From NCBI GenBank assembly GCA_010279815.1, contig QEOQ01000378.1, positions 621,906 to 685,905 on the forward strand: DNA of 64,000 bases, read 5' to 3'. Source of the stretch: Brachionus plicatilis. Its lineage: Eukaryota > Rotifera > Eurotatoria > Ploima > Brachionidae. The position numbers and the translations under genes were made by a program. The notes below the pieces were generated by a model. The model saw only the letters and a list, made by a program, of their open reading frames with translations, had not been told where the DNA came from and did no database searches. Each line of letters starts with the position of its first letter. Within the stretch, counting starts at the first letter, position 1. Below are positions 1 to 60,100 of this stretch, piece by piece.

Positions 1-2672
1 TTGACATGTCATGTCAAATTTATTTTCATATTTAAAATTTTAAAATGTCCTTTTTTTTTAACTTTAATAGATTTAAATATTTTAATTGATTTTGATGAAA
101 ACTTACTTTTTAAGACAAAAAAAATTTACTTAAAATTTGTTAAAGTGGAAAAATAAAATTATTTAAGTTTGAATGAATGGATATAAAAGTTAAAAAATTG
201 AATTTTTGAATTAACTTAACCTGGATTATTTAAATTATTGTCTGTTTTTGTTAAATAAATTAGAGATTAATCATTTTGATGTTAATTTGATAATGAACCA
301 TCATTAGAAATATAACGTTCAGTATTTGTTTTTTAAAAATTAAAATCAAAATCATTAGATTAATTAGGTTTTAAAATTTTAAATGATCGTTTTGATATTG
401 AAATTTTATCTGAAACTTCAATTTGTCTCTTTTATTTGAATTTTAGTCTCGTTTTATTTGTTTTTTTTATTAAAAGTTTATCTTTTTTGGGGGAAAAATT
501 GATCAAAAAGGCGACCAATCCAGTCAATTTTTTTTTCAATTATAAAATTTGATAAGCAGTTGGTAAAATCTAATGTACTTTTTTCGCCATGGAATCTTTA
601 ATAAGAGCATAAAAATATCTATTTTGAAATAAACGTAAATCTTATTAAAAATGAATGATCAAATTAATCAAAAATTTTTTCTATTTTATTTTTGTGTTAA
701 AGTCTAAATTTTTTATGAGTCTGAATGATGTCATTTTATTTTTCTCAAAAAAACGCTTCTAATACCTCTTGTTATGTTTTATTTGAGTTATACATCTCAA
801 AACCCAATCACACACTCTATAAAACACATAAATAAAATTAATATGAGTTAAGAAATTTTTTGTTTAAAAGTGAAAAAAGTAAAAAAAAAATACAAAAATA
901 TCGATATGGTCTTTTGGTTAAAGTTTTCACAAAGTTCCAAAAAGTTTTAAAACCTGAGGTACCTTGCAAACATTAACAGTCTATATAGATTTTTTAAAAA
1001 CTCAAAATATTTAACTTTACTTGATATGTGTTTAGAAATAAACCATGTTTATTTGTCAACTATAAGGCAAAGAAATAGTGAAAATCTATAGCTTTTATTT
1101 AGATATACAAGGTTTTCAAATAAATTTATTCTATTAGTAAATCAATCATAAAACAGTACTTGCATTTTCCTGATTAAGTATTTAAATAAATTAAGTTTTA
1201 ATTATTCTGATAAATTGTTTTGCATTAAATTTATTTTCTCTAATAATAAATTTTCCAATTTAGAGCCGTAATTAAGAAAGCAGTTTTTAACTCAATTAAA
1301 CAATTTAATTTTGGTTAAATATTTGTAATTTAATAATTTGATAATCCATTGTTTCGATTACTTACCATTTTTAATGTAAATTTTCGTATAATGAATAAAA
1401 AAGCCTAAAAAAGAACGATTTTTGAAATTACAATTTTCGAAATTTTTTTGAGTCTTGGAATAACTTATTTGAGAGATACAGTTTTTGGATCATCTCTAAA
1501 TTTCTAGATACTCACATTTTAAAATGCACAATAAAATTTAATCGCTTTAAAGCTTTATTTTTAAATTTTTTAAAAGGGATTGTAATTTGCTAAAAAACAC
1601 TTGAAATTTAACTCAAAATATTTCGATCATATTTGAAAAATGAAATTGAAAATAATCAAAAATTTTACTCTGTGATATTTATTTAAAAATTTTCAATAAA
1701 TTTAAATTTATAAATTATTTGCATTAATGATTTAAATTATACATTGACTGGTTTTGTTTCATATTTAAAATACAGATTTCTTCAAAAAGTAATGATCACT
1801 ATATTCTTTTGTATTTTGGCATTTGCATTGTAACCAATTTCAACCCGAATCTTTATTTGCATCTCCAATATTATTGAACATAAATAATTTTTATATTTGT
1901 TTAATATTCAGTGGTAATTTGATGCTTTCAATTTACTTAATTTTAAAATAATTCACGTAAAATATCGGGAAAACTGGAATTTATGAGAGTTTTCTAAAAT
2001 TATCGCTATTTTACAAGAATTTCGGATTTTTTGTGTAAAAATCAAGAATGACAAAATTTCAAAAAAAATCCTTTTTTTAAATTTTCTAATTGTTTTATTT
2101 AGAAAATTGCATTTCAAAAAATTGCAGATTTTTTTATTAAAATTTAGTAAGACTTTGAAAAAAAGGTTTTTTTAGTAAAATATTCAAAAAATTTTTTATT
2201 TTGTTTAAATTTTTTTTGAAAATGGAAAATGAATTTTGGACACATTACCTTAAATTTTTTAACTCATAGTGTAACCTCATTATTAAATACAGATAAATTT
2301 AAAAAATTTTTTGATAACGACAAAAGATGAATTTTTAAATTTTATCAATAATAAAAATTATCTAAAATTTTTTTTTAACAATAAAATGTTTTTCCAATAT
2401 TAAAAAAAAATTAAAATATATAATAAGTTTTGTTTCGTAATTGATTGTATAGTTATTTGTATGATTGAATACATTTTTTAATTTTTAAAAATCATTTAAA
2501 ATAAAAAAATTTATTTTGAATAAAAAATTATTTAAAATTAGTTAAATTTAATTTTGCAATTTTTTCAAAAATTCATTTGACTAAGTTTACGGCTACGCTT
2601 TTTTCTCATAATCTTTGCAAATAAATAATTAAAAAACCCAAATCTTGTGATTTTATATTTTAAACTTCAAAA
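1..2672. other. AT-rich intergenic DNA, no gene seen
   Basis: No open frame with protein-like composition and no tRNA-like fold was found on either strand. The sequence is dominated by A and T runs. It must contain the promoter of the downstream SNAPIN/FRA10AC1 cluster, but I cannot point to a specific core element. Confidence 0.5.
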
Positions 2673-3247
2673 ATGAGTGAAGATAGTCAGCCAAAACAAA
2701 AAGAAACGGAAGAGTTGGCCAATCTGAGCGAAGAAATTCGTCAAAATATGAACATATCCAGAGCCAAAATTAATGAGAACTTGCTTGTCACCAATTTTGT
2801 TGCCTTTTTCGAACCATTGATTCAAAATTTAGACTCAAACGTTCAATCACTCAGGTAAAATTAAACAAAAATTCCAAATTTTAATCTTTTTTGACAGACA
2901 CAGCCAAATCGACCTCCAGGACCAAATAAAGACACTTCTAAACCGTAATAAAAAATAATTTAAAAAAAAAAAACTTAATCCACTCTTTTGTTTTGAGAAG
3001 AAATCGGAAAAATTTATGAAGATGAAAAAAAAAGAATAGACTTGGACGAACACACAAAACGACTGGTTCTTACCAAAAAAAAATTGAACTCAGTTCAGGC
3101 AACCATTTTAGCTGTACAGGTAAATTTAGTCCTTAAAAAATAAATAAAAAATACTAAAAAAATATTCTAAAGGAACGCCTAAATCGCATTTATACTGCCG
3201 TTCACAAAGACCCTAATTTTAAGTCCAAACAAACAAATATTGAATAA
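2673..3247 (+). CDS. SNAPIN: SNAPIN (BLOC-1 / BORC subunit), four exons
   Basis: Exons 2673-2854, 2898-2944, 2998-3119 and 3173-3247 join in frame to 141 residues; human SNAPIN is about 136. The introns are 43, 53 and 53 nt with GT..AG ends. After an acidic N-terminus the protein reads like SNAPIN throughout: an FFEPLIQNLDSNVQSLR block, SQIDLQDQIKTLL, EIGKIYEDEK, LDEHTKRLVLTKKKL and the terminal QERLNRIYTAVHKD coiled coil. Known role of the family: a small helical subunit of BLOC-1 and BORC, acting in lysosome-related organelle biogenesis, endosomal transport and synaptic vesicle priming through SNAP-25. The stop codon is embedded in an AATAAA polyadenylation signal (3243-3249). The next gene starts 104 bp downstream, suggesting a shared transcription unit. 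Identity is from motif recall, not an alignment run here. Confidence 0.88.
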
Positions 3248-3340
3248 AATTTTTAATAAAATTTTGCTTTATTTTTTAAAAAAATTTTAGCTTTTAACCA
3301 AGTTAATTTAATTTAAATCCAAAATTTAAAATTTAAAAAT

Positions 3341-3351
3341 TTTATTTAGTT
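3341..3351 (+). promoter_or_regulatory. Putative trans-splice acceptor before FRA10AC1/PIGL
   Basis: A T-rich tract ending in TTTTATTTAG lies two bases before the FRA10AC1 start codon, 93 bp after the SNAPIN stop, with no upstream exon to splice from. This is what a spliced-leader acceptor in an operon looks like. Outron-style addition is inferred; the leader RNA itself was not found in this window. Confidence 0.55.
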
Positions 3352-5128
3352 ATGTCTTTTAAGCCGCCTGAATCTCCGAAATCATCCAAGGTAAACAATG
3401 CTGCATTTACTAATCCCGTTCGTGATCATACTCTATCTAAGCTTGACCATTGCTATCTCATTTTTTCACACGAAAAATCCTAAGATCGACTTTAGAGGAA
3501 AAAATATTTGTTTATTGATTGCTCATCCGGACGATGAGTCCATGTTCTTTGGACCACTGCTTTGCCATTTGTCCAAAATTGATTGTCAAATCTTCATTTT
3601 GTGCATGACCACTGGCAATTATTACAACCAAGGCTCTCGGAGAGTGCAAGAGATGCACTCGGCATGTAAACACATGTTCAGTAGATACAATTTGAAGATA
3701 GTTGACCAAGGGGACAGAATCCCTGACCATGCAAGCAAAAAATGGGATGAAGAGCTCACAAAAAACATAATTTCAGCTTATTTGCAGCAAAATTCCATCC
3801 AAACAGTGGTAACTTTTGACCAATTCGGAATCAGTGGACATGCCAATCATTGCTATCTGAATAAAATAGTGAAAAAATATTTTTCTTTTATGGAAGTTTG
3901 GCAATTGGTGACAGTGAACCGAGCCAGAAAATACATACCTCTGATTGACATTTTGTTTAGCCTAAAAGAAAACCATTTGATAGTCGGCTCTTTGCGCGAC
4001 TATTTTAGAATATTCGGCATGATGCTGGAACACAAGAGTCAATTGGTCTGGTTTAGATGGCTGTATTTGATCACCTCTAGATATATGCTTATAAATTCAT
4101 TTAGAAAAATTTATTGAATAAAAATTTTATTTTAGTAAATTTTTTGTTTTAAAGACCCCGCTGTTTGATGACTACGAGGGCTCGGAGTTCGAATATTCGG
4201 CCAAAGAGCCGCGGTCCGATGACATTCCAAAAAAACCAGCGACCAGAGCCGCTAGTCTGCCGTCCAAGGCTCATTTGAGCAATGAACAAATGAAGAATGA
4301 ATCACAGATCCGGTCTTTGCATTACAGAAGCATGAATGCCTATGCCCGCCATGTAAAATTGGTCAACGACTATCTAATCTATTACAGTGGGGGGAAAACG
4401 CTCAAGGAAGTGTTTGAGCGCGACGTGTCCAAAGACAAGACAGATTTGGATGTAATAAGGGAAGAAATGAGGTTTATTTGGGACGAGCAGAATGAGCCTA
4501 GCACTTGGGAGCAGAGATTGGCAAAAAAATACTATGACAAGCTGTTCAAAGAGTACTGTATATGCGACTTGACGCTTTTTGACCAGAAAAAAATAGCAAT
4601 GAGGTGGCGAGTTGAGAAGGAAGTGTTGACCGGCAAGGGCCAGTTTGTTTGTGGTGATAAACGGTGTTCAGTGCGTGATGGACTCAAAACTTGGGAGGTC
4701 AACTTTGGTTATGTGGAGCATGGTGAGAAAAAAAATGCTCTTGTTAAGCTAAGGCTGTGTCCTGAATGTTCTGTTAAATTAAATTTTCATCATAAGTATA
4801 AATTTAAGCAGGTTTTGTATTGGGTTTTTATTTTTTTGCTAGAAAAAAGGAATATGTTAAGCCGGCAAAGGTTGAAAAGAGAAAAAAAAAGCATACAAAA
4901 TTGGAGGAGTCCGAGTCCGAAAGCGACAAAGAGGAGACCAAAGAGGAAAAAAAGATAAAAACAGAAGAAGTGGTTGACTCTAGGGAAAAAATAAGTGCTG
5001 ACGGCAATATGATTGTTTTGGAATCGGACGATTCTATGTGGAAATCGACTGGTGTTTCCGAAAAACATAACGAGGATAAAGCCAGAGAAGAGGAATTCGA
5101 AGAGTATCTGGAAGATTTATTTTTTTAG
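3352..5128 (+). CDS. FRA10AC1: FRA10AC1 homologue, three exons, hosts PIGL in intron 1
   Basis: Exons 3352-3390 (13 codons), 4155-4795 and 4843-5128 join in frame to 321 residues; human FRA10AC1 is about 315. Recognition rests on the conserved core: NDYLIYYSGGK, DKTDLDVIREEMRF, LAKKYYDKLFKEYCI, WRVEKEVLTGKGQFVCG, WEVNFGYVEHGEK, LVKLRLCPECSVKLNFHH, with paired cysteines that look zinc-binding, then a Lys/Glu-rich tail ending EEEFEEYLEDLFF like the human C-terminus. It is a nuclear protein associated with spliceosomes (family knowledge). Intron 2 (4796-4842) is 47 nt and starts GTATAA; the tempting donor at 4812 gives a stop, so it was rejected. Intron 1 (3391-4154, 764 nt) contains the whole PIGL gene on the same strand. 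An AATAAA lies at about 5140. Confidence 0.9.
3398..4117 (+). CDS. PIGL: PIGL, GlcNAc-PI de-N-acetylase, nested in FRA10AC1 intron
   Basis: A single-exon frame of 239 residues. It removes the acetyl group from GlcNAc-phosphatidylinositol, the second step of GPI-anchor synthesis, on the cytoplasmic face of the ER (family knowledge). Visible features: an N-terminal hydrophobic anchor (residues about 4-23), the metal-binding AHPDDE motif (42-47), TTGNYYNQGSRR following it, a DQFG block and the second metal ligand motif SGHANH (146-151). Length is close to the roughly 250 of animal PIG-L. Its ATG is only 7 nt downstream of the 5' splice site of FRA10AC1 intron 1, so that splice junction lies in its 5' UTR. 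The stop codon overlaps an AATAAA. An upstream ATG at 3352, out of frame, opens a 43-codon reading frame that overlaps the PIGL start and ends at 3483. Intron-retained or internally polyadenylated transcripts would encode it. Confidence 0.9.
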   Translation: MLHLLIPFVIILYLSLTIAISFFHTKNPKIDFRGKNICLLIAHPDDESMFFGPLLCHLSKIDCQIFILCMTTGNYYNQGSRRVQEMHSACKHMFSRYNLKIVDQGDRIPDHASKKWDEELTKNIISAYLQQNSIQTVVTFDQFGISGHANHCYLNKIVKKYFSFMEVWQLVTVNRARKYIPLIDILFSLKENHLIVGSLRDYFRIFGMMLEHKSQLVWFRWLYLITSRYMLINSFRKIY

Positions 5129-16600: not shown

Positions 16601-16994
16601 AGCAATCTATTTGTGGAGATGAGGTGGATCCAATAAAATATAAGACAAAAATTTATTAATTTCTTACTCTCTTTCCTGTATTTTCCCTCTTTTAAATTGA
16701 ATAATCAAAAAAAATCGATATATTTTTAATAGATAGACTAAAAATTTAGATACTAAATATTCTGGTAGCTTATTTCTTCATACGAAAAAAAATAAGAAAT
16801 GAAAATATAATATTCATTATTCAACAATTAACTTTTTAATTTAAGGGTTCAATGGTAATTTGTGGTGCTACAGGACCCAAAAATTAAAAAAAAAATTAAT
16901 TAAAATGAGTAATGAGTCAATTTCAGTAACTGGATGAGCCCGAATAAATATGACCTTGACTTAAACACTTTAGGAAACCTTGGAAATAAGGAAA

Positions 16995-17484
16995 TAAGTC
17001 TTTGATTGGATCTATTCTAGATTATTCTTTTCCTTGTCTTAACTCTCTTTCAGAAACTAATATCAAAAGGTTAGAAGTAATCCAAAATTCAGCAGTTCGT
17101 TCTATACTTAAACTAAGATATGATACTCCCTCCAACATATCACATCATGAGGCATATAATAAACTTAAACTACTAACAGTCTCAAATCGACTTTTTGAGT
17201 TGAGTGAGAGATATGTTAGGTCAGGACTGAGCCATTCTGTTCCATTAACTGTTAGACTAGTGAAAGAATATAACAAAGGTTTCGAATCAAGATACATTGA
17301 GTACCCAACTCCATTGTGTAATTGCTACCTTACTATTTCTTCTTTTTTTCCTGAATCATCAAATATTTAAAAATGTGTATTCTGTTACTCTCTATCAAAA
17401 TTTATCTAATTTTAATTTTAATATTTATCTCCTTTTTAACTTATATTATTTTAAATTATTTTTTTCTTATTTTTTATTTTTATT
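16995..17484 (+). mobile_element. 3' fragment of a non-LTR retrotransposon, runs into the gap
   Basis: The frame 17002-17370 reads LIGSILDYSFPCLN..NIKRLEVIQNSAVRSILKL and later a typical thumb/C-terminal segment (NRLFELSERYVRSG), the region after the reverse-transcriptase palm in Jockey/CR1-type LINEs. The same peptide, decayed, occurs on the minus strand right after the gap (about 18150-18090), so the two copies belong to one family and lie tail to tail. Confidence 0.7.
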
Positions 17485-18081
17485 NNNNNNNNNNNNNNNN
17501 NNNNNNNNNNNNNNNNNNNNNNNNNNNNNNNNNNNNNNNNNNNNNNNNNNNNNNNNNNNNNNNNNNNNNNNNNNNNNNNNNNNNNNNNNNNNNNNNNNNN
17601 NNNNNNNNNNNNNNNNNNNNNNNNNNNNNNNNNNNNNNNNNNNNNNNNNNNNNNNNNNNNNNNNNNNNNNNNNNNNNNNNNNNNNNNNNNNNNNNNNNNN
17701 NNNNNNNNNNNNNNNNNNNNNNNNNNNNNNNNNNNNNNNNNNNNNNNNNNNNNNNNNNNNNNNNNNNNNNNNNNNNNNNNNNNNNNNNNNNNNNNNNNNN
17801 NNNNNNNNNNNNNNNNNNNNNNNNNNNNNNNNNNNNNNNNNNNNNNNNNNNNNNNNNNNNNNNNNNNNNNNNNNNNNNNNNNNNNNNNNNNNNNNNNNNN
17901 NNNNNNNNNNNNNNNNNNNNNNNNNNNNNNNNNNNNNNNNNNNNNNNNNNNNNNNNNNNNNNNNNNNNNNNNNNNNNNNNNNNNNNNNNNNNNNNNNNNN
18001 NNNNNNNNNNNNNNNNNNNNNNNNNNNNNNNNNNNNNNNNNNNNNNNNNNNNNNNNNNNNNNNNNNNNNNNNNNNNNNNNN
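17485..18081. other. Assembly gap (597 Ns)
   Basis: Unknown bases. The gap sits between two inverted copies of the same retrotransposon 3' end, which explains why assembly failed there. Open frames spanning the Ns are meaningless. Confidence 0.99.
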
Positions 18082-18193
18082 TGAAAATAAGTTTAGACAG
18101 GGAAATGAATAGTCTAATATCGAGCCTATTAATGATTTGTAGAGATTACTTAATGTATAAGTATTTAAGCCCCATTTTTTGTTTGATAATATT

Positions 18194-18800
18194 TTAATTA
18201 AATTTAATCTTGAGCTGCAGCGTTTTTATATCTTCAACCATAGAGTTAAAGGTTAATTTTGGGTCAAACTTAATGCCAAGAAATTTTACATTTTGTTGAC
18301 TTTCGAGTTTATTCCCATATATCTCTAAGTTAAGATTTGAATTTTCCTTACTATACTTGGAAAATACCATAAAGCAAGACTTCTCTAATGATAATTTCAT
18401 TTTCCACTTGCAGAGCCATTTTTCTAGTTCTTTTAGATATTTGTTTATCTTATTTTCTAGATTACCCTTTTTTTTATAAATAAAAAAAGTCACTAGATCA
18501 TCTGCAAATAAGAGAGAGTATTCACTATTAGTTTTATTTCTCTTTGGAATATCATTAATGAATATACTGAACAGAAGAGGACTAATTACTGAACCTTGGG
18601 GGACACCTGCAGTTATTAAATATTCATCACTTATATGACCATTTACATTTACTTTGAATGATCTGGAATCAAGAAATGATTTTATCCAGTGGATAAGATA
18701 GTCAGGCAAGTTCATTTTAATTAGTTTATAAATTAATCCGTCATGCCACACCCTATCAAAAGCTTTTGAGATATCAAAAAATAAGGCCTGCTGGATAAGG
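18194..18800 (-). pseudogene. Reverse transcriptase fragment of the LINE
   Basis: Contains FDISKAFDRVWHDG (block with the first catalytic Asp), LPDYLIHWIKSFLDSR, the AGVPQGSVISPLLFSIFIND block, the catalytic FADD motif (LLFADDLV) and the KCK-like ..LEKSCFMVFS and VKFLGIKFD segments. The N-terminal RT blocks are deleted, so it cannot be active. After about 18194 the frame decays but is recognisable in another frame up to the gap. Confidence 0.85.
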
Positions 18801-19018
18801 GATTCTTGCCCATTTTATCGATAAAGTCAGACCAATTTTTGTCCCAAAATTTTTTTAAAGAGATTTTTAACTGAGAGGTTAGAAAGTTGAATTTTTGCTT
18901 TGCTAATTGGGAACGAGTTCTTTGAAAATACCTGGTTTTCCTGCGTTCTTTTATTAAGTTTACAATTTCATGCGGTAGGGTAGTTTTATATATTTTCCCT
19001 GACTGTAATGGGATACTT

Positions 19019-19984
19019 TTATGGGCAGCACTTATTATTTTTTTTTGAGATTATATTATTATAGTCGTCAACACTATCTGGGTTTAAAATCGGAACACTA
19101 AGAATTTCTTGAAAATATGACCAATTTGCTTTTTTGAAATTTAACCTTCTTGAAATCAATTCAGAAGTCATAATATGCTCAATTGATATGCAAGCTTCAA
19201 TAGGGAAATGATCACTTGTCATATCATGTTTTGACAAAACCCTAAAATCACTGATTTTGTCTAAGAGATCGGATGAGACTAAAAATATATCAAGTAATTC
19301 ATAGTATTCTCTACTAAATATGCTAAAAGTGGGTGACTTGTCATTTATAGTTGACATGTTTAACTTATTTATTATATTCTCTAAAATATTTCCATTTTCG
19401 TTTTGACCAAAACATCCTATTTGCTTGGACTTAGCGTTTAAATCACCGCCAAGAATAAAGTTTTTACAGTTTTTACTGATTTGTTCAAAAAGCTCAAAAT
19501 TTAGAATCTTATTAGGTGGGTTGTATAGGCTAAAGATAAACAAGTAGTCATTTTTTATTTTTATTTTGATGCAAAGTAGCTCTGCTGAGAAGTTTTCAAA
19601 TGATAAGTCTTGAGCAAAATCGAGTCCTTCCTTAACTAAAATTGCTACACCGCCGCCATATTTATTTCTAGGTTTGATTATTGATAGGTAATTTTTGTAG
19701 TTCAAAAAAATATTTTCTTCATTTGCATCTATTTTTATTTCATTTAGCAACATAATATCTGGGGAATTCTGAGCCAAAAAATTTTGCAATAGTAACACTC
19801 TACTGGGAAGATGAGAACAGTTCCAATGTGTAATTACTAACCTTTTTTTTGATAAAGCTGATGATTTTTTTTTGTTCATTTTTATTTTGTGATGCTGATT
19901 GAGCCGTAGATCTATGGATTGAATGAGTGACTTTCTACGTAGGTTTGACTGCGAAAGAAAATCTCCTGTTTTTGTTTTTTTCAT
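19019..19984 (-). pseudogene. LINE apurinic/apyrimidinic-type endonuclease domain
   Basis: 321-residue frame. Endonuclease/exonuclease/phosphatase-fold motifs are intact: VITHWNCSHL (metal-ligand Asn), MLLNEIKID (catalytic Glu), YGGGVAILVKEG, FSLYNPP, LGGDLNAKS (GDxN) and TSDHFPI (terminal catalytic Asp-His). In the active element this domain nicks the target DNA to prime reverse transcription. The frame ends at an A-run (about 19037-19050), and the linker continues in another frame, indicating a frameshift. Confidence 0.85.
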
Positions 19985-20414
19985 CTATTTTTGACTGCTG
20001 TATTTGAGTTTTTGTCGGATTTTGTTTAGGATGTTCGTTTTGTAGTGAGAGTTGTGTATTGGCTTGTTTTTGATCAGTTTTTGTCTTTGAAATTGGAATT
20101 TTTGTGATTTCATTTTTATGTTCTGTTTGCTTAGTTGTATTTGGAATACCTGAGTTACCATTGTTTTGGATATTAACATTATATTGCAAATTCTCAAAAC
20201 CATGTCCGATACTTAGGCGGCCATTTTTCGAGTTGGTATCGTCAGTTACCGATTTATCAAGTGCATCAATGTTACGCTTGTAACTTGTATTATCACAAGT
20301 TATCATTTTGTTCACTTCAGCAAACGACTTCTCGATTTCCTCGTTAGAGAAGAAACCAGATAGAGGATTTTCGTTTGTTTTTTGGCAGATTACTTCAGCT
20401 CCTTCACGATCAAG

Positions 20415-20850
20415 ATATTATGTCAATTAATATTTATATATGTCAATTAAAAAACAAATATTTGTCAATTAAAACTATCAGTTATACTAGTGACTAGTAT
20501 AACTGACAGTGTCAATCTGAAAAAATAAATGTCATTTAAATAAATGTTTTGTCAATTAGTTTTTATATTTGTCAATTAAAAAAAATATTTGTCAATATAA
20601 AAAAATAAAATGAAAGAAAATATAACAAAAATTATTTTTGCAATGCTTTTGACATATTACGTGGTCGTCCAACACTCGCAACTTGACCAAGTCCTACTGT
20701 CAAGGCCTCTTTTGGAAATTCTGTAAATAATCTATCTCGAAAGGCAATTCCTATTATGTGCTTGCACATGTAATGTTTAAACCACGATGGACAAGTACAT
20801 GTGCTCAAACGCCAATTGTCTTCCTGATAAATAAATAATAATTTTTAGTC
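20415..20850 (-). mobile_element. MULE remnant: SWIM zinc finger and iterated TGTCAATTAA end
   Basis: The minus-strand frame 20823-20632 reads STCTCPSWFKHYMCKHIIGIA, a CxC..CxH SWIM zinc finger, then VASVGRPRNMSKALQK and a stop: the C-terminus of a Mutator-like transposase. It begins right after a TTTATCAG acceptor, so an upstream exon is lost. Beyond the stop (20600 down to 20420) TGTCAATTAA is repeated about six times, the element's terminal repeat. It encloses a 27-bp near-palindrome with arms CAGTTATACTAGT (about 20479-20506). Confidence 0.75.
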
Positions 20851-53454: not shown

Positions 53455-53541
53455 GCCCAAATGAACTTCGGTGGTCCGGTGTGCAGGCTTCAAACCTGTA
53501 GCTGTCTAACGACAGAGTGGTTCGATTCCACCTTTTGGGCG
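53455..53541 (+). tRNA. tRNA-Sec (TCA), copy A
   Basis: 87 nt without CCA, the length of the animal gene. Anticodon arm CAGGCTTCAAACCTG with TCA, the near-invariant GTAGCTGTCTAaCGACAGAG long variable arm, B box GGTTCGATTCC, and a long acceptor stem GCCCAAATG against CCTTTTGGGC. Discriminator G, and CCA is genomically encoded next to it. It inserts selenocysteine at UGA together with SECIS factors. A T-run follows as terminator. Confidence 0.96.
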
Positions 53542-54120: not shown

Positions 54121-57100
54121 ATGAAACTCATATTTTTTGTGTGCCTTTTGATTCCCTTTATGAGCACCCAAGGTAACATTTGTTTTTCTTCCAACTTCTC
54201 TTAAATTCTTCCGAAGCAATCTCTGTAGACATTTGCAATCCGAGTGTAAATCTTGAACAGTATCCGCCAGGCTTAGTGAGTTCCAACACAAAAATTCTCT
54301 CTGGCATAACTGGCACAAAGAACTTTTTGAATACAAGCTCGCTGCAAGAATGTGTCCTTTCGTGTTGCCAAGATGCGGCATGCAATTTTGCCTACCTGCA
54401 AAATTCAGCAATTTGTTTCCTGATCACATGTTCTGGCGCGAAAAATTCGTGCCAGATTGGAGTCAACCCCAAGAAGTCTTCCAAAGACCCCATTGATTAC
54501 TTGGTCAATGTAAAGTCGAGACCAAATATCCAAAATGGTCTATTGGAAAGCCTGATCAGCAAAGAAAAGGAAGACTTGGAATCTTTTTTGACCAACAGAG
54601 ACAACCAGGACGAATGTTCACCAGAAGAAAGCTCTTGCCAGCCATATGAAATATGCCGACTGAACAAAAACATGAATGTGTATGAGTGCGTTTGTCCTAG
54701 TGAGTATGGTTTTCATGTAATTGATGGAAGATGCCGCGAGTTTTTGCCAGATACAAAAGGATGCGAGATGTACATTGATCCATGTCCCAAGAATGAAGAG
54801 TGCCTGATCCGAAACAACTACAGAAAGCATGGAACTTGTCAATGTGAGATTGGCACTAGACGCAACATGAAGACTTTTAAGTGTGAGTCGGACAATGATC
54901 TGGCGAAGAGCCGCAGGCGTCCAGCGCCACTTGCGCAAGAAGAGGCCGAAGAAGATGAAGAGTCATTTTGGGAGAAAATTTGGAAAGAAATCGGATTTAG
55001 AAGTAAGAAATTTGAAAAAGATGGCACAACTTTGGCAAGCACTAGAGTTACTGATCCGCCAAAAATTTTTACTAGCAATTTACAAGCTAATGCTGGGCCT
55101 AGTTTAAATGTTTACTATCCGTCGCGTTTGTGTGTACTTAATGGAACTTTGACCAATTTGTTGCTGGAGAAACATATTAGTAAATGGGAATGGAGCAAGG
55201 ATCCGTCAAGTCCTGCCTTTGGTGTAAGTTTTTTTTTTTTATTTAGAATTAAAAATTTATTGAATATTAAAAGTAAAAAAAAATTATTTTTCTGAAATCA
55301 AAACAAAAGAATTCTAGGACAAATTTTGTACAATTAAATTGTTTTTAAGATTTTTCTTAGGATAATAAAGGTGAACGTTCAATTCATTGAATTTTTTTAT
55401 GGAATAAAATAAAGAATAGATGATTTAGAGGACATATATAAAAAAAATTTTTTTGAGAAAAATAAACTCTCGTAATTGTTCATAGACAATAAATTTTACA
55501 AAGTATTAAAAATTTTCCATTAATCTATAAACATGAAAATAGTAATTGAAAAAAATTTATTTCAAGAGTTAATAAAACGCAAATACATTAAAAATTTGTT
55601 CTGAAAATAACTTTAATTAATAAAATCAAAAATTACATGAGATTAAGTAAAAAAAATGTTTTTACCATGTTTTATTTAAGATGAATCACAGTAATTTGTT
55701 TGCAATTTTTCCTCGGTAAAAATTACTCTTCGAAATATAATTTTAAATAAATCAATGCTAAAAAAGAAAAAAATAGCAGCTAGAAATTGAATCGAATGTT
55801 TTTATTTTTTTTTGCTTTTTTTGTTGTAAAAAAATAAATTTAAAATATTTTATTTTTTAGTTAATTTAAAATATTTTGTCAGCAATATTTTTTTGAAAAA
55901 ATTAATTTGTCAGCAGAAAAAATAAACTTAACATTAAAGAGTAAAAGAAACTTTCAAATTAATTTCATAAATAATTAAATCTAATGAAAATTAATCTAAA
56001 TACAATTTTTTTACAAACTAATTTAAAATTTTTCGGATCTTCTGATCCAACTAGACGTAACCAACGGCTTATAGCCTTCCCATAGCCTTCTTTTTTCCAT
56101 TTTTATTTTGATAATGATTTTTGACATTTGTATTCCCAATGGTATCCCATAATTTATTATTTCAAAATTGATTAATGGGATTTATCTATACCTAGTAATT
56201 ATTCATTTTATCACGTAAGCCTAAAACAATCTTTTTCAGAAAACGTCTGTTATGCGTGTGCTGAATATTTTAAAATAATTTTTTTTTTAAATTTGATTAA
56301 AAAAATAATCAAATTAAATTTTTATTGTTCTGACATCTTTATAAGAATATATTTTTAAAAAATTTTTTACTCTATGTTAAAAACTAGAAGCAATTATCTA
56401 TAAAAGAAAAAAAAAATCTTAATATAAATGCCCAAATGAACTTCGGTGGTCCGGTGTGCAGGCTTCAAACCTGTAGCTGTCTAACGACAGAGTGGTTCGA
56501 TTCCACCTTTTGGGCGCCATATTTTTAACCAAAAATATTGAATAAATTTTTTTTTCAGTAAAAATGTGCATAGAAAAAGATGTTTGAAAAAATTTATGGC
56601 GGAAATAAAAATTATTATTTGAACATATTGTTTTAAAATAAAATTATAATTCAAAAAATTTTCAAAAAGCTTGTTATTATTATAGAACAAAATTTTTTTG
56701 TTCATTGCTTCAATTTTTTTAACTTTCCGGTATATAAATATATAAGTATTCAATTTGGAGTTTAAATTATAAAAAAATGGGACCCAACAGCCCAAAAATT
56801 TTGAAAAGTATTCATCAAAAATTAAGGCATATACATTTTGTAATCCCTTATTTAACTTCATCAGTATAAATCTACTTATATCTGTGTAAAATTAATTTAT
56901 AAAGACATAAAATTGATTTATAAGATAAATAGATTTTATAAAGACAAAAATACTTTTTAAATATTAAAGATTTTTTCATTATAAAAAAACTTTTTCAGTG
57001 TAAAACTACAATTAATTTAAACATCTTAAAATGACTTTTGGACTTTATCTTTATCTAGCAATTGCTTGAGCTTTTTGAGTGTTCATTCTTTCAAGAAAAC

Positions 57101-60100
57101 TACTATTGGTTTCACTGTTCAAATCAAGCATTGAGATTATGGTGAAAAAATTTGTTATAATTTTGGAAATAATTCTAAGCTAAAAAAAGCTTTTTATATG
57201 AAAAAATTTTTTTTTCAATCAAATAAGTTTTTATTTTATTAAAAATTCAAATTCATGTAGCATTTTTTTAAAGTAAACTTGTTAGTGATAAAAAAATTAA
57301 TTTTAGTTACAAAAACAATTTTTAACCAAAAATAAAAAAAAATAAAAAAAATAAAAAAGAAAAAAGAAAAAAGAAAAAAGAAAAAAGAAAAAAGAAAAAT
57401 ATTTTTTTTAAAAGAGTTTTAATCTTTTTGAATGTTCCATTGAAATCATCAAATTCTTTATTAAAAATAAAATTATTTGATAGAGATTTGCTGGTACAAA
57501 TGAAGCACCAGTGGTGGTGTATGAAAACATGGTCGAAGGCGAGTATAGATTTGTGCTAAAAGTGTGGTCTAGTGAGGGTGAATTTAGTCAAGACTTTGTG
57601 CATGTGTTCGTACATGGCTCAACTAATGAAAATGTGTCAGCCCAAGCTCATAATCCGGCTCACATAAACCAAAACATGATCGAAATTGAGCTTGATATTG
57701 AGCCAAGTTTGCTTTCAGAGGGCCTTAAAATCGAATTTCTGAACAAATTGCAGAATTTTTTGCTCCAAAACAAAGAGTTTAAATTAACTAGTCCAAAATT
57801 AGTGCTAATAAACTCGCGATTATCATACCTAGAAAAAAAAAGCAGTGTTGTCCTCGAGCTTTTGGTAACTGACTTGGTAAATTCGAGTATACCAAGCGGA
57901 ATCAGTGACGATTTGGTCTTGGGCGACAAAAATCGCCACATTTGCCCCAGTGCGCCTATTGTGCTCCAATTGAGAAAAAAACAGAAAAGTTTCAAAAATC
58001 TTCTTGACTCCATCCAAACCATAATCGAACGAATTCAATCCAATGGACTCAAAAACCAAACTTTGATGGGCACAATCGAGCAACTGGACAACAAAAAGAA
58101 CCAGGTGCTGGACTTTTTGAACGTAAAAATATTAAGCATCAGACAAACAACATGTTTTGATGATAGACTGTTTGACCAAAGCTTAAACCACACTTATTCT
58201 TGCTCAGGTCATGGCACATGTGACATGCATTCCAGAAAATGCATTTGTAACAAATATTGGATGCCTAATTATTCAAGATATTTTTTGAACTATGAATCAG
58301 ATTTGACAGATGGAAACAATTGTGGTAATTTAAAAAAATTGAAATTAAATTAAAATTTTATAATAATTTTGAAAAAATTTTATTTAGAATACAACATTCC
58401 GTTGACTGTTTTGGTACTTGTGCTAATCGGGTTCCTGGTCTATTTAACGCTTAAAGTTATCTTTAAATACTTTTTTTACTATCTGTGCTGTTGTTGTTTG
58501 TGCTGTCGTCGAATTAAAATAGACAAGCAAAGGTCTAAGAGGCTTTTGGGAAATTCAGGTCTAGATGAAAGCTATTTGAATGACAGCATTGATATGGAAG
58601 ACTATGACAACAAATATAAAAAGTAAGTGAAGCATTTTTTTGTTTTTTCCTTAATATTAAACATCATCTCTAATATGATTCAATTAAAATCAAAGATAAA
58701 ATTTAAAAAAATTTCCAAAAATTTGGGAGATTCTGACGGAAGTAATAAGACCTAAAATTTATGTCTGACTAAAGTTTACAGAGATTTAGGGGCACTTGAA
58801 GTTCATGATCATGATCACATAATCAAAACTAATTTAATTAAAATATCAATAAAATTATGAAATAATCCTTTTTTATTTCTTTTTTTAATTAAATATTAAA
58901 TGTTCGAATAAGAAAAAATCTTTTATTTTTCTAATTGATTTCTTATTGAAAAATTTAAAGACAAAATTAAAATCCAGATTGAGTTATCCAAATTTTGGCT
59001 CAAGTAAACGCTTTAAATGATAGTTTAATATTGAATAAAATATATTAAAGCGAAACAAAGATAAATTTAGTATTCAAAAATTTCAAAATATTGATTAATA
59101 TTTAGAGTGGCACTATTGACACAAAATGTGTCAATAAAATTGGAATATTGATACATTATGTTCCATTAAAAAAAATTATATTGACACAATAAATAAAAAA
59201 TGTTGAATTATATTACAAAAATATATATTTAATACAAATTAATAACAAGAAATTTCATTTTTAACCTAATTTAATTCTAATCTAACAAAAAAAATATGGC
59301 AGCTTTTTTTCATTAGATTTTTTTTTTCAATTTTTGTCTCATTAAGTCCAAAGAGAGGTTTTCATTCTGTTGAACCAAATGAAATCAAATAATTTGCTTG
59401 GATTTATTTAGATTAAAGGCAAAAAATCATTTGTACTTCTAATTTATTTTTAAAATTTTTAATTAAAAAAATAGATTTTTCCTATTTTGGTGCATTTAAG
59501 TTCAAAAAATAACAATTTTCAAAAAATAATCAGTAGTATTATAAATTCTATATTCCTAATTGTTGTATTTTTTTATTTGTACATTTCTTTGCTTTTTAAT
59601 TAAAACAATGCAAAATTTAAATCTTAAAGAAAAAAAGTTGTCATTTATAAAATATACTAACTTTAGTTAGCTTTGGATAGTGATGAGGTTTTTTAGAAAA
59701 AGACGAAGAATGAAATTCTAAGATCAAATTTTTTTAAAATTCAATATTTAGATATTTAGGTATAAAATTTTGATGATACAAGATTGATAGTTCAAAATTT
59801 ATTTTTATTCAAAAAAGAAATAAGTAACAATTTTTATCAAATATGATATTCACTGTGTCAATAAAATTGGAACATTGACACACTATGTTCTAATAAAAAA
59901 TTTATATTGAGACATACTGTGTCAATAGTCACTTCGTAATATTTAATTTAGTTGATGAGAAATTTACGTAAATTTACGTAAAATTGCCAAAATAAAATTA
60001 AGTAAATTTACGGTATTTTCGTAAATTTACGATATTATACGTAAAATATAGTAAAAATAGTAAAAACCAAAATGTACAAAAAAAACCTTTATTTTAAATA

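Follow-up and report, generated by a model that had tools for sequence, protein, structure and literature searches.

The window analyzed here, a 64,000-nt stretch of contig QEOQ01000378.1 of the rotifer Brachionus plicatilis, contains a tight row of three genes that lie on the forward strand within 2.5 kb: a SNAPIN-like gene, PIGL and FRA10AC1 (Table 1). Judging from the predicted gene structures, PIGL is inside intron 1 of FRA10AC1, on the same strand as its host, and fills nearly all of the intron, whose 764 nt are made up of 7 nt, the 720-nt PIGL ORF and a further 37 nt. By coordinates and splice-site comparison, both made on DNA only, the ORF falls wholly between the donor and the acceptor of its host, as in other same-strand nested genes. 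The ATG at which translation of the host probably begins lies in exon 1, which makes the arrangement one of the first-intron type known from the cholinergic locus, though a non-coding exon may precede exon 1. The initial annotation had named both proteins and had proposed the nesting, the 13-codon first exon with its GTAAAC donor and the PIGL ATG (at 3398) 7 nt beyond it, the 3' splice site leading into exon 2, and the out-of-frame ATG at 3352 as the start of an overlapping upstream ORF (uORF); all of these agree with what is presented below, and intron 2 of FRA10AC1 is an addition to that model.

Table 1. Features of the SNAPIN-PIGL-FRA10AC1 row, in positions of the window
Feature	Positions	Strand	Remarks
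SNAPIN-like gene, upstream neighbor	2673..3247	+	exons 2673-2854, 2898-2944, 2998-3119, 3173-3247
AT-rich gap	3248..3351	+	GC 10% over 3247-3351
FRA10AC1 exon 1	3352..3390	+	13 codons, translation MSFKPPESPKSSK; GC 44%; on a PIGL mRNA, would be out-of-frame leader and uORF start
FRA10AC1 intron 1	3391..4154	+	764 nt; AAG/GTAAAC ... TTTGTTTTAAAG/ACC; phase-0 join of exon 1 and exon 2
PIGL (GlcNAc-PI de-N-acetylase), intronless, nested in intron 1	3398..4117	+	239 aa; PF02585
AATAAA, candidate intronic poly(A) signal	4117..4122	+	overlaps the PIGL stop TGA (4115-4117)
uORF on the unspliced (PIGL) transcript	3352..3483	+	43 codons, out of frame, overlaps the PIGL start; stop 3481-3483
FRA10AC1 exon 2	4155..4795	+	PF09725, E 1.4e-51 on 4155-4808
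FRA10AC1 intron 2	4796..4842	+	47 nt
FRA10AC1 exon 3	4843..5128	+	ends EEEFEEYLEDLFF-stop; placed by alignment with relatives

The protein obtained by splicing the SNAPIN-like gene by hand matches the Snapin_Pallidin family (PF14712, E 3.6e-12); the gene has three introns of 43-53 nt each, and its end is separated from the FRA10AC1 ATG by 104 nt. This gap must contain the 3' end of SNAPIN, and it probably also supplies a putative promoter and a leader common to FRA10AC1 and PIGL.

Elsewhere in the window, a close direct repeat (stretches of 235 nt at 94% and 114 nt at 95%) contains two tRNA-Sec genes that score equally in Rfam (53455-53540 and 56430-56515, both on the + strand). The second is flanked by ORFs whose KIAA0319-type matches are weak (54177-55292 and 57484-58350) and is perhaps located in an intron of a KIAA0319-type gene. 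A tRNA-Cys/tRNA-Phe pair occurs twice, at 29005-29232 and 31289-31516, as a 228-nt inverted repeat with 99% identity, and a masked stretch (N) at about 17450-18090 lies near ORF pieces that by eye look reverse-transcriptase-like (about 16990-20417). A kinase encoded in the window shows 69% identity over its full length to a protein of Brachionus calyciflorus and 87% to another protein, while the B. plicatilis protein listed covers only 51% of it, at 59% identity; by this likeness the animal is a probable monogonont rotifer. A search for COX1 gave no match.

The nested ORF matches PF02585 with an E of 5.4e-21 and 75.9 bits, against a curated cut-off of 28.2. The HPDDE and HxNH motifs, which we take to be the active-site motifs of PIGL, are kept in all 10 aligned PIGL rows, namely the window and 9 of the 121 matches from the search for relatives. 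The protein is 77% identical to the relative P0001 over 97% of its length, which points to a maintained gene. P0001 starts 8 residues further in than the PIGL of the window, and the distance between donor and ATG may therefore be different in that relative. Six-frame profile searches of the genome of this animal (102.9 Mb) reported one match for PF02585 and one for PF09725, the FRA10AC1 family; in these searches only the best candidates were scored, exon by exon, and a copy that had diverged strongly or was broken into small exons could escape them. The same genome contains PIGA, which also acts early in GPI synthesis. Since there is a single PF02585 match alongside PIGA, the PIGL of this animal should come from this locus, and the nested ORF is most likely its working PIGL rather than a dead copy.

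The spliced FRA10AC1 model specifies a protein of 321 aa, which aligns end to end with its relatives and matches PF09725 with 174 bits, against a curated cut-off of 27. Close to the start of exon 2 it shows the YEGSEF motif common to the relatives P0121, P0122 and P0123, and the join across intron 2 restores HHKKKEYVKP (HHKKKEYIKP in P0122) together with the conserved C-terminus, up to the stop at 5128. The relatives differ at their ends. P0121 is 85% identical, starts with MFDDYEG and has C-terminal residues that find no alignment, as if its frame ran on into intron 2; its appearance is that of an ORF taken from genomic DNA without splicing. P0122 is a single 342-aa protein, 65% identical, on a 45.6-kb contig. 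If its ORF is uninterrupted, as the case of P0121 suggests for proteins from this source, intron 1 would be absent, and so nesting of this form would be absent too. Hence, intron 1 seems to be missing in the species of P0122, and the nesting of PIGL in FRA10AC1 may be lineage-restricted. Viral contigs and bacterial and archaeal genomes were scanned as well and yielded no confirmed relative.

Intron 1 was compared with nine other introns of the same genome. Five of these were placed in kinase loci by protein alignment; the remaining four, of which SNAPIN contributes three and FRA10AC1 one, were positioned by eye on the basis of frame and homology. The kinase introns came from ten stretches chosen from 119 kinase matches, of which five gave an intron with at least 18 votes, one gave a single-vote intron and four gave none; single-vote placements were dropped. 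All nine start with GTA and end in AG after a mostly T-rich stretch (5-13 T in 17 bases), where GT and AG were required for the kinase introns and sought by eye for the other four, so that the observations proper are the third base of the donor and the T-richness of the ends. Intron 1 has splice sites of the same type, with 11 T in the last 17 bases, and across its acceptor TTTTAAAG, which ends at 4154, GC rises from 8% (4118-4154) to 55% (4155-4284). It is longer than all nine others (764 nt versus 43-177 nt). With the PIGL ORF taken out, 44 nt of it remain, the same size as the adjacent small introns (43, 53, 53 and 47 nt), and this remainder may be a trace of how the nesting arose. The intron calls of a gene finder trained on 264 kb of this genome were discarded for over-calling introns and drifting to GC-rich motifs, and a short-intron scan of the 264 kb was discarded as being dominated by GC-rich shadow frames.

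The geometry of the PIGL start bears directly on how the gene could be expressed. As its ATG stands only 7 nt past the donor, the PIGL mRNA must begin within exon 1 or before it, unless it is nearly leaderless, and with 7 nt before the ORF and 37 nt after it the intron offers no space for a promoter of its own and an ordinary leader. To be free of the donor, a PIGL transcript could begin no earlier than 3392, and its leader would not exceed 6 nt, as against a mean of 52 nt (SD 35) given for putative 5' UTRs of B. plicatilis (PMC1925144). Most likely, then, the start of PIGL transcripts lies within exon 1 or before it, so that they include the donor, and a promoter region shared by the two genes appears close to forced by the DNA geometry. 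The initial annotation had suggested a leader common to both, and the 7-nt gap strengthens that suggestion. The bases of the donor double as the start-codon context of PIGL (GTAAACAATG); position -3 is an A at the PIGL ATG and a G at the ATG at 3352.

We propose that one promoter region, lying just upstream of or overlapping exon 1, drives both genes. Removal of 3391-4154 by splicing would give the FRA10AC1 mRNA and destroy the PIGL message, and a transcript that is not spliced and is cleaved in the last 37 nt of the intron, between the PIGL stop and the acceptor, would become the PIGL mRNA, so that the two outcomes would be mutually exclusive for any one transcript. We think that PIGL transcripts would mostly arise by one of two routes. 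In one, transcription would start inside exon 1, which would leave a first exon too short for good splicing and omit the FRA10AC1 ATG; short first exons tend to be poorly spliced. In the other, the same start as for FRA10AC1 would be used, splicing would fail, and ribosomes would reach the ATG at 3398 by leaky scanning past the one at 3352; the overlapping uORF would be expected to lower PIGL translation from any start upstream of 3352. In Drosophila, hosts are described as ignoring the poly(A) signals of nested genes while their 5' splice site is present, and deletion of the donor restores use of the signal (PMC3890989). By this behavior, a PIGL transcript that carries the donor should be spliced and not cleaved unless its splicing is weakened, which weighs against plain intron retention and makes starts inside exon 1 an attractive route.

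We give the model as a whole, with nested PIGL, one putative promoter region and a presumed decision between splicing and cleavage that sets the product from either mode of start, a probability of about 0.6. It is favored because each family has a single reported match, the intron has no promoter space, the splice sites are of the local type, exon 1 weakly resembles the N-termini of P0122 and P0123 in combination and PIGL is maintained. Against it stand the behavior of Drosophila hosts, the background frequency of AATAAA, the overlapping uORF, the length of intron 1, beyond that of all nine others, the likeness of exon 1 to P0122 alone, which is not significant, and the occurrence of similar exon and donor patterns at other ORFs. 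A more pointed version, in which U1 at the donor at 3391 would decide between FRA10AC1, a protein of the spliceosomal C complex, and PIGL, is a long shot; as FRA10AC1 belongs to the splicing machinery, the capacity for splicing could then feed back on the choice between the two products.

The AATAAA at the PIGL stop contributes little to this model. The initial annotation had pointed it out, and it is indeed present at 4117-4122; its worth as evidence for a poly(A) site is weakened by its frequency. An AATAAA starting within 45 nt of the stop is found for 12 of 48 ORFs of at least 150 codons (PIGL included; many of the 48 probably end in introns) and for 25.6% of 5000 stop triplets outside ORFs. 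As its frequency equals the background of this AT-rich genome, the motif is uninformative, and we rejected it as evidence for a PIGL poly(A) site.

The alternative that survives best, though we consider it rather unlikely, is that of independent overlapping promoters, with PIGL having a start of its own in exon 1 or in the first bases of the intron and being regulated apart from its host; the nesting would then be mere packing, with no link through splicing. Drosophila offers a precedent, as the nested transcript there is described as using its own exonic poly(A) signal, which the host with its 5' splice site ignores (PMC3890989), and the A at -3 of the PIGL ATG (AAACAATG) also speaks for it. 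The position of the donor tells against it from both sides: a start beyond the donor meets the 6-nt limit on the leader, and one in 3353-3390 retains the donor, so that splicing must still be avoided.

A second alternative, which we regard as improbable, is that exon 1 does not belong to FRA10AC1. The true first exon would then lie elsewhere, the 13 codons would be no more than a uORF of PIGL, and PIGL would be the middle gene of a compact row, placed either within an FRA10AC1 intron that is longer than modeled here or ahead of a different start of FRA10AC1. The peptide is indeed short, and its match to P0122 alone is weak, being reached by 13.6% of residue shuffles, or 26.7% with MS kept, and hence not significant. 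Codon log-odds, from a table built on 264 kb of this genome, are 4.1 in the frame of the exon, yet 2.0 in a neighboring frame. The bare pattern is also not rare: among ORFs of at least 100 aa in the 264 kb, 12 of 61 (PIGL included) are preceded, at no more than 60 nt, by a GTA donor that ends an ATG exon of any phase. In the background, formed by 4927 ATGs outside ORFs of at least 100 codons, a phase-0 ATG exon of at least six codons with a GTA donor within 60 nt upstream occurs at 260 (5.3%), and some of these background exons may be real.

The case for exon 1 rests on the conjunction of its features. Scored against the N-termini of P0122 and P0123, it is the best of four phase-0 candidates (ATG to GTA, 4-60 codons) in positions 1-4110 of the window, and its phase fits. 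Its combined similarity to the two is reached by 0.8% of 20,000 residue shuffles (1.9% with MS kept), and that to the MSFRSPKS N-terminus of P0123 alone by 1.4% (2.6% with MS kept). The exon stands out at 44% GC behind a gap with 10%. When an exon GC of at least 40% is added to the background requirements, 27 of the 4927 ATGs (0.55%) remain, and with a donor within 10 nt and at least 10 codons as well, six (0.12%). What sets the PIGL locus apart is its distance, phase, GC and protein identity taken together, and exon 1 is likely, on these sequence features, to belong to FRA10AC1. One other ORF, upstream on the same contig and within the same 264 kb, of 126 aa (window coordinates -139704 to -139327, +), has a similar set-up, with a 26-codon phase-0 exon of 38% GC and a donor 8 nt before its ATG; it is either a chance occurrence or a second nested case.

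The weakest alternative is a spliced-leader operon, in which SNAPIN, PIGL and FRA10AC1 would be cotranscribed and trans-spliced at AG sites such as 3349 (TTTTATTTAG/TTATG) and 4154 or 4135. Three tightly packed genes on one strand, and an acceptor-like TTTTATTTAG 2 nt before the ATG at 3352, would suit it, and bdelloid rotifers are reported to trans-splice a 23-nt leader (PMC1925144, PMC3795323). That leader has no match in the B. plicatilis genome at up to three mismatches, a search that an unrelated leader would escape, and B. plicatilis ESTs are described as showing no leader among 68 transcripts with a likely 5' end, with rare use left possible by the authors (PMC1925144). Moreover, in a FRA10AC1 mRNA trans-spliced at either 4154 or 4135, the first Met in frame would come at 4290, and the conserved DDYEGSEF would be lost. 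Hence, spliced-leader processing at PIGL and FRA10AC1 is unlikely.

Among known systems, the cholinergic locus is closest in architecture, with a single-exon ORF in the first intron of its host; the comparison, already drawn in the initial annotation, holds at this level. VAChT and ChAT lie on the same strand and have a common 5' exon in worm and fly. Unlike PIGL and FRA10AC1, for which we know of no common pathway, both act in acetylcholine signaling. The rotifer pair, known here from DNA alone, further differs in that PIGL fills 720 of the 764 bases of the intron, with its ATG after 7 intron bases, and in that the FRA10AC1 start codon sits within the would-be shared leader. Another GPI-synthesis gene, PIGY, is carried with the unrelated PYURF on one transcript, as two ORFs of a single mRNA; at the locus described here, in contrast, splicing removes PIGL from the FRA10AC1 mRNA.

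Same-strand nesting itself is a known kind of arrangement. VAChT is described as a single-exon ORF in the first intron of ChAT that is kept in nematode, Drosophila and mammals (PMC3053374), and in Drosophila 727 of 1,651 nested genes are given as lying in the direction of the host (PMC3890989). In that report, same-strand Drosophila pairs such as nop5 in xl6 resemble the rotifer pair in that a host intron contains a gene with a poly(A) signal of its own, a candidate one in the case of PIGL. They differ in being made as separate transcripts, the one of the host being marked by its 5' splice site, whereas a PIGL transcript that avoided the donor would lack the space for a leader of normal length. 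Mouse H13/Mcts2 likewise couples a nested gene to polyadenylation in a host intron, but Mcts2 has its own intragenic promoter, which is silenced by DNA methylation, and the pair is imprinted (PMC13309782). Same-strand overlaps are reported as under-represented in five animal genomes (PMC2330155). In the literature searched (both gene names, and rotifer nested genes, by titles and the starts of abstracts), we found no description of the PIGL/FRA10AC1 pair, in line with the initial annotation; the papers naming both genes, as judged from their listing, are not about gene structure. The pair and its tightness thus appear new in that literature.

Should the nesting prove to be packing only, it would be an attractive example of how genes are compacted in a rotifer. 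If confirmed by RNA, the locus would place two unrelated conserved genes, each having a single reported match in this genome, under one promoter region and make them depend on the same splicing decision. With only 7 intron bases ahead of the nested start codon, the coupling would then be tighter than in the nested pairs of the papers cited above, and the locus would offer a simple animal test of the competition between splicing and intronic polyadenylation.
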